A stretch of DNA of 64,000 nt. Source: Pseudoxanthomonas sp. GM95 (GTDB lineage Bacteria; Pseudomonadota; Gammaproteobacteria; Xanthomonadales; Xanthomonadaceae). Positions 49,039-56,298 of this stretch are shown piece after piece (within the stretch, counting starts at the first letter, position 1; the number at the start of each line of letters is the position of its first letter). Position numbers and translations under genes: made by a program. The notes beneath the pieces are model-generated. The model was given only the letters and a program-made list of their open reading frames with translations. It ran no database searches and was not told where the DNA came from. The stretch is taken from assembly GCF_900109775.1 (NCBI RefSeq), contig NZ_FOAX01000003.1, forward strand, positions 310,001 to 374,000. Reading direction: 5' to 3'.

Positions 49039-50763
49039 TCAATCCAGCGCGAACACCCACACGCTACCGCCTTCAGGGACCTTCTCGTCCCAGCCGGCCA
49101 GGGCGTGCATCTTGCCCTGGATCCACTGCGCGTCCACGCCGTAACCGGAGACCACCGCGATGTACTGCTTGCCATCGATCTGGAAGCTCGACGGCGGCGA
49201 GATGATCCCCGATGGCGTCGGGAACTCCCACAGCAGCTTGCCGCTGGCCGCATCGTAGGCGCGGAACATTCGATCGTTGGTGCCACCGGCAAACAGCACG
49301 CCGCCGGCGGTGGTCAGGATCGAACCGAAATTCCACGACTTGGCGTACTTCTCCTCCCACATCACCTTGCCGCCATCCACGCTCCAGGCCTGGATGCCGC
49401 CGATGTGGTCGAAGCCTTCCTTCACCGACAGGTCCAGCTTGTTGATGTCGGCGCCGGCCGACCACTGGCCCGGGATGATCGGCTGGATGATGCCGGTCAG
49501 GGTCAGGCAGTGGTTGTCGTTGTAGGGCACGTACAGCATGCCGGTCTTGGGGTTGTAGGCCTCGTACGGCCAGTCCTTGCCGCCCCACAGGCTGGGGCAG
49601 TAGGTGTGGGTTTCACCGGTGTGCGGCTTGGCGTCCAGGTTGTAGGTCGGGCGCCCGGTCTTGGGATCGACGCTGGTGAACACCGTATTGGTCACGTACG
49701 GCTCGGACTTGTTGTAGGTGATCTTGCCCTTGGCGTCGCGGTCCAGCCAGTAGATGCGGCCGTTGCGCTGGGCGCTGATCATGCCGCTGACCTTCTTGCC
49801 GTTCTTGGTGTATTCCACCAGCGTCGGCGCGTTCATGCCGGCCCAGTCCCAGGAATCGTTCCAGTGGTACTGGAAGTGGCTGATGATGTCGCCGGTCTTG
49901 GGGTCCAGCGCCAGCACCGAGGCCAGGTACAGGTTGTCGCCCGGACGCTGGTCGCCCATCCACGGGCCGCCGTTGCCCACGCCCCAGTAGATCACCTTGT
50001 TCTTGGCGTCGTAGTTGCCCGGCATCCACATCGTGCCGCCGCCGTGCTTCCACGCGTCCTTCCACTGGCCGTCCTGCGGCCAGGTCTCGAAGCCCTTCTC
50101 GCCCGGCGCCGGTACGCTGTAGCGCGTCCAGGCCAGCTTGCCGGTTTCCGCGTCGAAAGCCTTGAGGAAGCCGCGCACGCCGAACTCACCGCCCGACGGG
50201 CCGATGATCACCTTGCCCTGCACCACCAGCGGCGCGGAGGTGATGTAGGCGCTTTCGGTTTCCCAGTCGCAGACCTGCGCTTCCCAGATCAGCTTGCCGG
50301 TCTTGGCATCCAGTGCGGAGAGCGCGCAGTCCACGCTGCCGACGTAGACCTTGTCGCCGTACAGCGCCACGCCGCGGTTGGTGCGATGCAGGGCGCCGAT
50401 GCCTTCGGGCACCTCGCGCTGGAAGTGCCACAGCGGCTTGCCGGTCTTGGCGTTGTAGGCGAACACGTGATTGTGCGGCGTGGCCACGAACATGTACTCG
50501 CCGTTGACGATCGCCGGCGCCTCGTGGCCCGACAGCACGCCGGTGGCGGCCGACCACACCGGACGCAGCTTGCTGACGTTCTCGGTGGTGATCTGGTCCA
50601 GCGCGCTATAGCTCCAGCCAGCGTAGTTGCCCTTGGTGAGCAGCCAGTTTTCCGGCTCGGGGTTGATCAGGCGGGCATCGGTGACAGGCTTGTAGTCGGC
50701 CGCGGCCAGTGGGGCCGAGGCCAGGGTCGCGATCAGCGCGACGGTGATGAGCGGCAGTTTCAT
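49039..50763 (-). CDS. PQQ-dependent (quinoprotein) alcohol dehydrogenase, 574 aa
   Basis: Periplasmic eight-bladed propeller enzyme of the methanol/ethanol dehydrogenase family without a haem domain. The signal peptide is MKLPLITVALIATLASAPLAAA. Calcium and catalytic residues align with MxaF: E193 (PSGGEFGVRG), N264 (GVGNGGPW) and D306 (NDSWDWAGMN); the residue two after D306 is Ala, as in calcium rather than lanthanide enzymes. The vicinal Cys-Cys that precedes NRG in MxaF and ExaA is absent (A124-L125 in ALHRTNRG). Last gene of the operon porin - AldA - Rieske - dehydrogenase. The substrate is unknown; a diol is suggested by AldA. No cytochrome c gene is nearby. Confidence 0.92.
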   Translation of the reverse strand: MKLPLITVALIATLASAPLAAADYKPVTDARLINPEPENWLLTKGNYAGWSYSALDQITTENVSKLRPVWSAATGVLSGHEAPAIVNGEYMFVATPHNHVFAYNAKTGKPLWHFQREVPEGIGALHRTNRGVALYGDKVYVGSVDCALSALDAKTGKLIWEAQVCDWETESAYITSAPLVVQGKVIIGPSGGEFGVRGFLKAFDAETGKLAWTRYSVPAPGEKGFETWPQDGQWKDAWKHGGGTMWMPGNYDAKNKVIYWGVGNGGPWMGDQRPGDNLYLASVLALDPKTGDIISHFQYHWNDSWDWAGMNAPTLVEYTKNGKKVSGMISAQRNGRIYWLDRDAKGKITYNKSEPYVTNTVFTSVDPKTGRPTYNLDAKPHTGETHTYCPSLWGGKDWPYEAYNPKTGMLYVPYNDNHCLTLTGIIQPIIPGQWSAGADINKLDLSVKEGFDHIGGIQAWSVDGGKVMWEEKYAKSWNFGSILTTAGGVLFAGGTNDRMFRAYDAASGKLLWEFPTPSGIISPPSSFQIDGKQYIAVVSGYGVDAQWIQGKMHALAGWDEKVPEGGSVWVFALD

Positions 50764-50831
50764 GCGGTTCCTCCCGGTAGAGCGTTGGTTGGGGTGCAGG
50801 GGCACGTGGGGGGACGTGGGGGATGAGCGGA

Positions 50832-54174: not shown

Positions 54175-54297
54175 GCAGGGCATCCGCATGCGCACGCAGC
54201 GTTGCAATCACGCGATCGGCCGAGCGCACGCACGAACGCCACGCCGAAGCGCCACCCCATGCGCACGGCATCGGGCGGCGTGTGCTGGATCAGAGGA

Positions 54298-56298
54298 TCA
54301 GGAGAGCTGCGTCGGCGAGACGATCTGCAGCCGTTTCATGCGCCGGTAGATGGTGGCGCGACAGGTGCCCAGATCGCGTGCGACCTCGCTGATGTTCCAT
54401 CGCTGGCGACGCAGTGCGTCGAGCAGCAGGTCGCGTTCGGCTTGGCCGTCCTGCAGCTGGCCGAGCGGACGCAGGCTGGATTCCAGCAGCGGCATCCCGA
54501 CCGGCTCGCGCGGGTCGTAGTCGCCGAAGATGTCTTGCGGCAGGTGCAGCGGCTCGATCGCCTCGCCATCGGCGATGGAGAGCGCGAAGCACAGCACGTT
54601 GCGCAGCTCGCGGATGTTGCCCGGCCAGTCGTGCTCGACCAGCAACGCCATCGCCGCCTCGCTAATCTCGGCGGTGGTGTTCATCGCCTGCGCTTCGGCC
54701 TGCACGATGTGGCGGATCAGGAAGCGGATGTCGCGCCGCTCGCGCAGCGGCGGCAGCGCCAGCGTGGCGCCGCACAGGCGGTAGTACAGGTCTTCGCGGA
54801 AGGTGCCGGCGACGATCTGCTTGCGCAGGTCGCGATGCGAGGCGGCGATGACGTTGAGGTCCACGCGGATCGGGCGGTCGCCGCCCAGCGGCATCACCTC
54901 GCGCTCGGCCAGCACGCGCAGCAGGCGCGTCTGCAGCAGCAAGGGCATGTCGCCGATTTCATCCAGGAACAGCGTGCCGCCATCGGCGCGCTGGATCAGG
55001 CCCTTCATGCCCTTGTTGCGCGCACCGGTGAAGGTGCCGGGCGTGTAGCCGAACAGTTCGCTCTCGATCAGCGAATCGGGAATCGCCGCGCAGTTGACCG
55101 CGATGAACGGGCGCTCGGCACGCTTGCCCGAGGCATGCAGCGCTTGGGCCAGCACTTCCTTGCCGGTGCCGGTTTCGCCCTGCAGGAAGATGCTGACCGG
55201 CTTGTCGACCAGGCGCGTGGCGCGTTCGATCAGCTGGTCCATGCGCGGATCACCGCCAGACAGGCGACGCAACGGCTCGCCACGGCGCGGATCGGCCGAG
55301 ACCTCGCTGTCCACCGCCTGCAGGCGGCGCGGCGCGGCCTTGGGCGTGATCACCGAGACGTGATAGCCGCGGCCGTCGCGGGTGGTCACGATGGCGTGGT
55401 CGGCGCCGGCCGTGCCCTTGGTCAGACGCCAGATGTCATCCACGCGCGCGCCGAACACTGCGGTCAGGTGGCTGTCGATCACCACCGGCCGGCTGTCGCC
55501 GAAACGTGGCGGCGCAGCGTCCAGCTGCAGCTGCGCACGCGCGCCGGAGTTGGCGCCGACGATGCGGCCATCGCGATCCACCGCCAGCATCAGTTCGCCG
55601 CACACATCCACCAGCGGACCGGCCGTGCCCAGGCGCAGGATCCAGTGGTCGCGGAAGTGCTGGATGAAGTTGGCGTCCTCGATCATGCGCGCATACAGCA
55701 CGATCATGTGCCGGGCCAGGTGCTGGCTCTCGCGCTTGTCCGGCGCCGAGAGCGCCGACACGTCCAGCGCGCCCATGAAGGTGCCCATCGGGTCGTACAG
55801 CGGCGTGCTGGTGCAGCTCAGGCCGACGTGGCCGATGTAGAAATGATCCTCGCGATGGCAGGTCAGCGTGGTGCGCTCGGCGATGCAGGTGCCGATGCCA
55901 TTGGTGCCGGCATGGACCTCGTTCCAGTTCGCGCCCAGGGCCAGGCCGGCGCGGCGCAGCGGGGCGTCCCAGGTGTCGTTGCCGATGTAATCCAGGGTCA
56001 CGCCTTCGGCATCGGTGAGCAGCAGCACGTAGCCCAGCTCGGAGACGTGCTTGTACATCTGCTCCATGCCGGCGCGCGCCACGTGCAGGTGTTCCTCGTG
56101 CTGCTGGCGGCACTCGCGCAGGCGCGCGGAGGTTTCGATGCGCACGTCCGGGCGCATCGCCGGGTCCAGCGCGTGCTCGTTGGCGCAGCGGCGCCACGAG
56201 CGATGGATGAGGGCGGTATTGGGATCGTGCAGGATCGGCGTGGCGGTGGAACGGACCACCTGCAGCACGGTATCCACATGCTGGCGCGCGTCTGTCAT
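54298..56298 (-). CDS. Sigma-54-dependent Fis-family activator, AcoR-like, 666 aa
   Basis: Bacterial enhancer-binding protein. Domain order: an N-terminal GAF-containing sensor half (NWNEVHAGTNGIGTCIAERT, HVGLSCTSTPLYDPMG are AcoR-class blocks), a PAS-like segment (about 240-330), an AAA+ domain (Walker A LQGETGTGKEVLAQ, the sigma-54 loop as GTFTGA, Walker B GGTLFLDEIGDMP) and a C-terminal Fis helix-turn-helix (ISEVARDLGTCRATIYRRMK). AcoR-class proteins sense acetoin, alcohols or aldehydes. The ATG at 56298 is preferred over an in-frame one at 56379. The adjacent sigma-54 promoter and enhancer repeats are its likely target. Confidence 0.93.
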   Translation of the reverse strand: MTDARQHVDTVLQVVRSTATPILHDPNTALIHRSWRRCANEHALDPAMRPDVRIETSARLRECRQQHEEHLHVARAGMEQMYKHVSELGYVLLLTDAEGVTLDYIGNDTWDAPLRRAGLALGANWNEVHAGTNGIGTCIAERTTLTCHREDHFYIGHVGLSCTSTPLYDPMGTFMGALDVSALSAPDKRESQHLARHMIVLYARMIEDANFIQHFRDHWILRLGTAGPLVDVCGELMLAVDRDGRIVGANSGARAQLQLDAAPPRFGDSRPVVIDSHLTAVFGARVDDIWRLTKGTAGADHAIVTTRDGRGYHVSVITPKAAPRRLQAVDSEVSADPRRGEPLRRLSGGDPRMDQLIERATRLVDKPVSIFLQGETGTGKEVLAQALHASGKRAERPFIAVNCAAIPDSLIESELFGYTPGTFTGARNKGMKGLIQRADGGTLFLDEIGDMPLLLQTRLLRVLAEREVMPLGGDRPIRVDLNVIAASHRDLRKQIVAGTFREDLYYRLCGATLALPPLRERRDIRFLIRHIVQAEAQAMNTTAEISEAAMALLVEHDWPGNIRELRNVLCFALSIADGEAIEPLHLPQDIFGDYDPREPVGMPLLESSLRPLGQLQDGQAERDLLLDALRRQRWNISEVARDLGTCRATIYRRMKRLQIVSPTQLS

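Follow-up and report, generated by a model that had tools for sequence, protein, structure and literature searches.

The window analyzed here, a stretch of 64,000 nucleotides from Pseudoxanthomonas sp. GM95 (contig NZ_FOAX01000003.1, positions 310,001 to 374,000 of the forward strand), carries on its minus strand a unit of five genes (49039-56298) that encode, in order, an activator, an outer-membrane channel, an aldehyde dehydrogenase, a Rieske protein, and a pyrroloquinoline quinone (PQQ)-dependent alcohol dehydrogenase. Based on sequence comparisons, we propose, with a probability of about 0.62, that this unit is a sigma-54-controlled operon for the periplasmic oxidation of a diol, in which the Rieske protein would take the place of cytochrome c as electron acceptor of the PQQ enzyme. 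The gene set itself, a promoter with an upstream palindrome, the pairing of Rieske and PQQ genes across a clade, and the loss of a Cys-Cys pair from the paired enzymes are all observed. An earlier note on this DNA, made from its letters alone (the original prediction), had described five genes on one strand that lack the usual cytochrome c gene; all five genes are real and lie at the positions claimed, and no cytochrome c gene was found within the unit.

The original prediction also made its case depend on Rieske and dehydrogenase genes occurring together in other genomes, and they do. A scan of genome contigs with an alignment of 24 Rieske sequences gave 540 matching stretches, 509 of which encoded relatives; the locus counts given below cover the best 80 of the 509. 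A PQQ gene was found within 750 bases of the Rieske gene in 72 of the 80 loci. It starts on the same strand no more than 500 bases downstream in 67 of them and is located upstream in the other 5; the remaining 8 loci have none at such a short distance. The carriers are Gamma-, Beta-, and Alphaproteobacteria, Gemmatimonadota, Rokubacteria, and one Acidobacteria metagenome-assembled genome, which is perhaps misbinned because it shares an identical enzyme with a Rokubacteria metagenome-assembled genome. The reverse test covered 398 genomes of the phylum (thresholds, E 1e-12 for the Rieske query and 1e-100 for the PQQ query), with the best 7 Rieske and the best 3 PQQ candidates scored per genome. 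The Rieske protein was found in 12 genomes, and the PQQ query had 14 matches, distributed over 13 genomes; the 12 of them with at least 49% identity adjoin the 12 Rieske genes in every case, and the other two (42-43%) do not. These 12 genomes represent 5 genera, with 8 of them from a single genus, and within Pseudoxanthomonas the Rieske protein is present (E <1e-79) in 5 of 37 genomes, including that of the window. Among plasmids, 31 records had a Rieske match (15 from Thermus), and in 6 of the 8 examined (Methylobacterium, Azoarcus, Roseomonas, Paracoccus, Alteromonas, and Deinococcus) a PQQ gene stands beside it. Based on the 72 loci and the 12 genomes that agree in both directions, a chance neighborhood was rejected. 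In support of the pairing, Rieske and PQQ distances are also correlated (r 0.81 for 65 pairs; highest of 1000 permutations, 0.14).

The PQQ enzymes next to these Rieske genes share a distinctive sequence change. In the window enzyme, which has a signal peptide by eye, the stretch ALHRTNRG aligns with CCDVINRG of the solved ethanol dehydrogenase 6zcv, so that the Cys-Cys pair is absent. There were 74 Rieske/PQQ pairs available for comparison (the 72 loci, the window, and L139), of which 71 are readable at this site and 3 are cut by contig ends. Cys-Cys was found in none of the 71, and all 71 have a histidine, within the motif H-x-T-N/S-R-G, beside the former Cys-Cys position. In the controls, Cys-Cys was present in 33 of 33 and the histidine in 0 of 33, with the reservation that 30 of these 33 score highly against the family model and are thus a biased sample. 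Ten unpaired PQQ-like genes (nine from the same loci, plus L136, which is also a control) lack the histidine, and six of them contain Cys-Cys. The histidine was also found in all 5 proteobacterial plasmid pairs examined. In a tree of 69 partner and 33 control rows (102 in total; quick method), a branch with a Shimodaira-Hasegawa-like approximate likelihood ratio support of 100 separates the partner enzymes from the controls.

The remainder of the active site is conserved. All 30 partner enzymes that were aligned have Glu193, Asn264, Asp306, and His126; we take Glu193 and Asn264 to bind the metal and Asp306 to be the catalytic residue. Two residues past this aspartate the window enzyme has alanine and not the Asp of lanthanide-type enzymes, which presumably makes it a calcium enzyme; a lanthanide enzyme in the window was rejected on this ground. 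Of the 74 pairs, 30 have Ala at this position, 39 have the lanthanide-type Asp, and 5 could not be read. Taken together, the sequences make it somewhat more probable than not that these proteins form a separate class of quinoprotein dehydrogenases, spread over several phyla with calcium and lanthanide versions and varied aldehyde steps, in which Cys-Cys was lost, the histidine became fixed, and a dedicated [2Fe-2S] Rieske protein oxidizes reduced PQQ (PQQH2). The fixed histidine may line an electron or proton exit toward the Rieske cluster.

The window Rieske protein has 204 residues and contains the two boxes CTHYGC and CNCHGS; the four cluster ligands and two disulfide cysteines are kept in 24 of 24 aligned family members. 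A Rieske oxygenase component was rejected because the protein is this small and a Rieske domain is its sole Pfam match. Of 71 Rieske frames, 70 have two arginines ahead of a hydrophobic stretch (a pattern match from which export by the twin-arginine translocation pathway is predicted), and the signal ends in an AxA-like site; because the protein is small and has such a site, it may be a soluble carrier. The original prediction had called it bc1-type, a label that fails if it denotes a subunit of cytochrome bc1. The bc1 model TIGR01416 gave 32.2 bits (cut-off, 97.4), all other bc1/b6f NCBIfam models listed were also below their cut-offs, with actinobacterial QcrA the best (95.4 of 275 bits), and a separate bc1 Rieske protein above the cut-off is encoded elsewhere in the genome (C9:624176, 223.1 bits). 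It is thus very improbable that the gene encodes a spare bc1 subunit that came to lie next to the enzyme by accident, even though a Rieske domain is present and, to judge from the title of a cited paper, Rubrivivax has spare Rieske subunits that can be exchanged. No cytochrome b or c1 gene is found in the unit, the pairing spans Pseudomonadota, Gemmatimonadota, and Rokubacteria, and the counts of adjacent genes in loci and genomes disfavor an accident of position.

Two further features of this family were observed. A Cys-rich stretch (CxC or similar) precedes the twin arginines in 39 of 71 Rieske frames (a pattern match in stop-to-stop frames), including those of the window and L024-L041, and C10 is invariant in the 24 aligned members. 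In Bradyrhizobium loci L065 and L073, one PQQ gene is flanked by two different Rieske genes.

PQQ alcohol dehydrogenases have been described as passing electrons to cytochrome c or to a built-in heme, and the role of the disulfide is debated; for PQQ, a potential of 90 mV is given in PMC11166783. The Rieske protein could be an assembly or redox-sensing partner, with the catalytic electrons leaving through a cytochrome c encoded elsewhere. Adjacency by itself does not separate a carrier from a helper, and the other PQQ cluster of this genome has, by eye, a cytochrome-like protein of its own. We consider such a helper role improbable, since the cluster ligands and disulfide cysteines are invariant in the aligned Rieske proteins and few CxxCH frames lie near the pairs: within 1.5 kb on the same strand, they were found at 5 of 63 pairs compared with 20 of 33 controls, counted with scripts that were not identical. 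In addition, the partner enzymes lack the disulfide that in ExaA has been tied to the reduction of cytochrome c550 (PMC12997753).

The proposed Rieske-coupled enzyme shares features with several known systems. Like ExaA and PedE with their cytochrome c550 (exaAB and pedEF), it is a periplasmic member of the TIGR03075 family whose route is completed by an aldehyde dehydrogenase, but a Rieske gene stands in the place of the cytochrome c550 gene, Cys-Cys is lost with an invariant histidine beside its place, and the regulator is an AcoR-like sigma-54 activator. With XoxF and MxaF (partners, XoxG and cytochrome cL) it shares the PQQ beta-propeller and the conserved Glu, Asn, and Asp of the active site; in contrast to them, it has neither a cytochrome partner nor Cys-Cys, and its wider clade contains both Ala and Asp sites. 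Arsenite oxidase AioAB also pairs a periplasmic dehydrogenase with a small exported Rieske protein, and its electrons pass to azurin or cytochrome c. There, however, the catalytic subunit is a molybdenum protein rather than a quinoprotein, and the window Rieske protein falls below the cut-off of the arsenite oxidase small-subunit (AioB) model TIGR02694 (48.6 bits; cut-off, 95.65). The nearest solved relative is the Thermus Rieske protein 1nyk (E 3.8e-29), but the relatives examined on Thermus and Meiothermus plasmids (one record each) do not adjoin a PQQ gene.

The control by sigma-54 that was originally predicted is supported by a perfect -24/-12 site (TGGCACGGCAATTGCT) and an upstream palindrome, both of which recur in relatives. 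The activator consists of an N-terminal part of ∼340 residues without a significant Pfam match, followed by an AAA+ sigma-54 domain and a Fis-type helix-turn-helix (PF00158, PF25601, and PF02954); the name AcoR follows the original prediction, and no AcoR model is among the matches listed. Because shuffled sequences give 3.1 matches to the -24/-12 site per window at up to 1 mismatch, the case for the promoter rests on its recurrence: when up to 2 mismatches are allowed, 18 of the 20 loci that have the activator contain a site within 450 bases upstream of the first gene, compared with 4 of the 60 loci without it. In Zoogloea, where the channel gene has a different location, and in Hyphomicrobium, where it is missing, the site precedes the Rieske gene. 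The palindrome, a motif that was first derived from the window and that shuffles match 1.1 times per window at up to 2 mismatches, has exact copies in 10 of the 24 further loci that were checked for it. There it precedes the promoter site by 133 to 167 bases, counted between the two starts, compared with 137 in the window. The palindrome is probably the binding site of the activator. A scan for sigma-70 promoters and terminators gave nothing exceeding shuffles.

Neighboring genes point to the likely substrate. An AldA-type gene (at least 60% identity) was found in 19 of the 80 loci, plus one of 37% identity, and a molybdenum aldehyde oxidase in 14; no locus has both. LutB together with LutA is encoded in 13 loci and LldD in 3, so that LutB or LldD is present in 16 of the 80 and in 13 of the 19 AldA-type loci. 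A lactate permease is found in 2 loci, pyruvate dehydrogenase E1 in 6, and azurin, just downstream, in 5. Representatives of LutB (TIGR00273, 472.2 bits; cut-off, 444.8), azurin, and LldD (NF008398) pass their family cut-offs, and we take other genes to encode LutA and LutC from their position, the LutA representative matching only models below cut-off and that of LutC none. In 20 control PQQ loci of ∼20 kb each, there was no match to Lut proteins, LldD, LldP, azurin, or Rieske protein, and 1 of the 20 has a molybdenum-type small subunit. The original prediction had suggested 1,2-propanediol, ethylene glycol, or a related compound; the lactate-oxidation genes in 16 loci lend support to this guess and shift it toward 1,2-propanediol. 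Most probably, the enzyme acts on 1,2-propanediol or a similar diol, for which the simplest predicted chain would lead through lactaldehyde, lactate, and pyruvate to acetyl-CoA.

It is also possible, if unlikely, that the same Rieske-coupled enzyme acts on another alcohol, such as ethylene glycol, ethanol, or another precursor of a 2-hydroxyaldehyde, and that lactate genes are neighbors for a general reason. The LldD-type genes (L024, L038, and L050) and an α-hydroxy acid oxidase gene of the Alteromonas plasmid may serve other hydroxy acids, 64 of the 80 loci have no lactate gene within the stretch fetched, and AldA-type enzymes also act on glycolaldehyde, as described in excerpts of PMC11166783. 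Against this alternative, LutB belongs, above its cut-off, to an L-lactate oxidation family, and a lactate permease (2 of 80 loci) and pyruvate dehydrogenase E1 (6 of 80) are encoded at some loci, in a neighbor search that left out glyoxylate genes.

In the mechanism that we favor, the AcoR-like activator would sense the diol or its product and turn on the operon, and the substrate would enter through the outer-membrane channel. The PQQ/calcium enzyme would then act in the periplasm to oxidize a vicinal diol (most likely 1,2-propanediol) to lactaldehyde. Single electrons would pass in turn from the reduced PQQ to the small exported Rieske protein, in the role usually filled by cytochrome c. 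From there, electrons would reach an oxidase by way of azurin or a c-type cytochrome; because azurin adjoins the genes in 5 loci, the sequences suggest azurin as the next acceptor. Lactaldehyde would move into the cytosol, where the AldA-type enzyme, in which no signal peptide was seen, would form lactate. Its oxidation to pyruvate would be performed by LutABC or LldD, in the genome of the window by an LldD encoded elsewhere.

Several observations weigh against this proposal. Since the loci are related by descent, neither their counts nor the correlation between Rieske and PQQ distances is independent evidence. At seven of the 80 loci, the contig continues but no PQQ gene is seen within 750 bases of the Rieske gene: L089 starts 182 bases before the Rieske match, so that an upstream neighbor would not be visible, a divergent PQQ-like gene (35%) lies 2.7 kb away on the opposite strand in L077 and L079, and no PQQ gene was found in L063, L092, L097, and L100. 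In L048, the contig ends 203 bases past the match. Cys-Cys is absent, with no histidine beside its place, from 4 of the 10 distant unpaired PQQ-like genes (two of them short frames), and excerpts of PMC8561711 describe it as missing from some minor members of Methylobacterium groups 7-9, with no partner named there. Conversely, the Deinococcus plasmid pair retains Cys-Cys, either as an older state or as a second association, so that loss of the pair is not required for adjacency. At the position of the bc1 tyrosine, 32 of 44 readable Rieske sequences, among them that of the window, have phenylalanine, a change that lowers the Rieske potential. An aldehyde dehydrogenase (32-36% identity) lies near 8 of the 20 control PQQ genes. 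In the genome of the window, LutB has no match and lldD lies at C6:588050, ∼220 kb away, which would leave the final lactate step unlinked there; a conventional PQQ cluster is ∼9 kb from this lldD, which shows that proximity to lactate genes also occurs with PQQ enzymes of other kinds.

The features of the unit are listed in Table 1. Pfam or NCBIfam provided family names for four of the five genes, the exception being the channel gene, which has no significant Pfam match of its own; its relative in L025 matches Phenol_MetA_deg (PF13557, E 2.8e-19), and its counterpart in the Azoarcus cluster is annotated as a transporter. A channel relative was found in 19 of the 80 loci and an activator relative in 20. 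Because relatives of all five genes are present together in 17 of the 80 loci (within the stretch fetched), the gene set is more than a chance association.

Table 1. Features of the five-gene unit (positions in the window)
Feature	Position	Strand	Evidence
PQQ-dependent alcohol dehydrogenase (type I quinoprotein, methanol/ethanol family)	49039..50763	-	TIGR03075, 514.4 bits (cut-off, 480.05)
Small exported Rieske [2Fe-2S] protein with RR signal	50832..51446	-	PF00355, 41.2 bits
AldA-type (lactaldehyde/glycolaldehyde) aldehyde dehydrogenase	51463..52899	-	NF007497, 755.5 bits (cut-off, 500)
Predicted outer-membrane channel, Phenol_MetA_deg porin relative	52994..53869	-	Via L025 relative
Sigma-54 -24/-12 promoter TGGCACGGCAATTGCT, precedes channel gene	53988..54003	-	Perfect match
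Palindrome TGCGACA-N2-TGTCGCA, probable activator site	54125..54140		121 bases upstream of promoter
AcoR-like sigma-54-dependent activator	54298..56298	-	PF00158 (214.6 bits), PF25601, PF02954

We rate this system as a widespread quinoprotein dehydrogenase whose partner is of a new kind; no description of a Rieske protein as partner of a PQQ alcohol dehydrogenase was found in the openly licensed PubMed Central literature searched. A natural clade with neither the disulfide nor a neighboring cytochrome, and with an iron-sulfur neighbor instead, is a ready-made experiment on electron transfer from PQQH2. The signature H-x-T-N/S-R-G together with a Rieske neighbor allows unassigned PQQ enzymes to be annotated, and the unit is a candidate aerobic route for propylene glycol, a coolant ingredient.

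Other genes were observed at some of the loci. A DUF1097 membrane protein is encoded between the channel and aldehyde dehydrogenase genes in 8 of 80 (L027, L031, L033, L034, L038-L040, and L043) and is not found in the window. An apparently exported protein of ∼150 residues adjoins the PQQ gene in 15 of 80 (L050, L057, L062, L064-L066, L070-L073, L082, L083, L086, L090, and L096), 11 of which contain the molybdenum aldehyde oxidase; the one member scanned has no Pfam or NCBIfam match. Within the window, a run of short repeats at 59370-59744 (AVAVAV on one strand, SNSNSN on the other) is probably not a gene.

The genome of the window encodes three enzymes above the TIGR03075 cut-off. One of these, at C6:577557, contains Cys-Cys and is followed by a frame that, by eye, joins a binding protein-like part to a CxxCH part, with azurin ∼3 kb on. 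It belongs to a second, conventional PQQ cluster (C6:570001-590000, L136) that also includes an AcoR-like activator and an aldehyde dehydrogenase, with lldD beyond. With its Cys-Cys, CxxCH frame, and azurin, this cluster offers a conventional system for comparison within the same genome.

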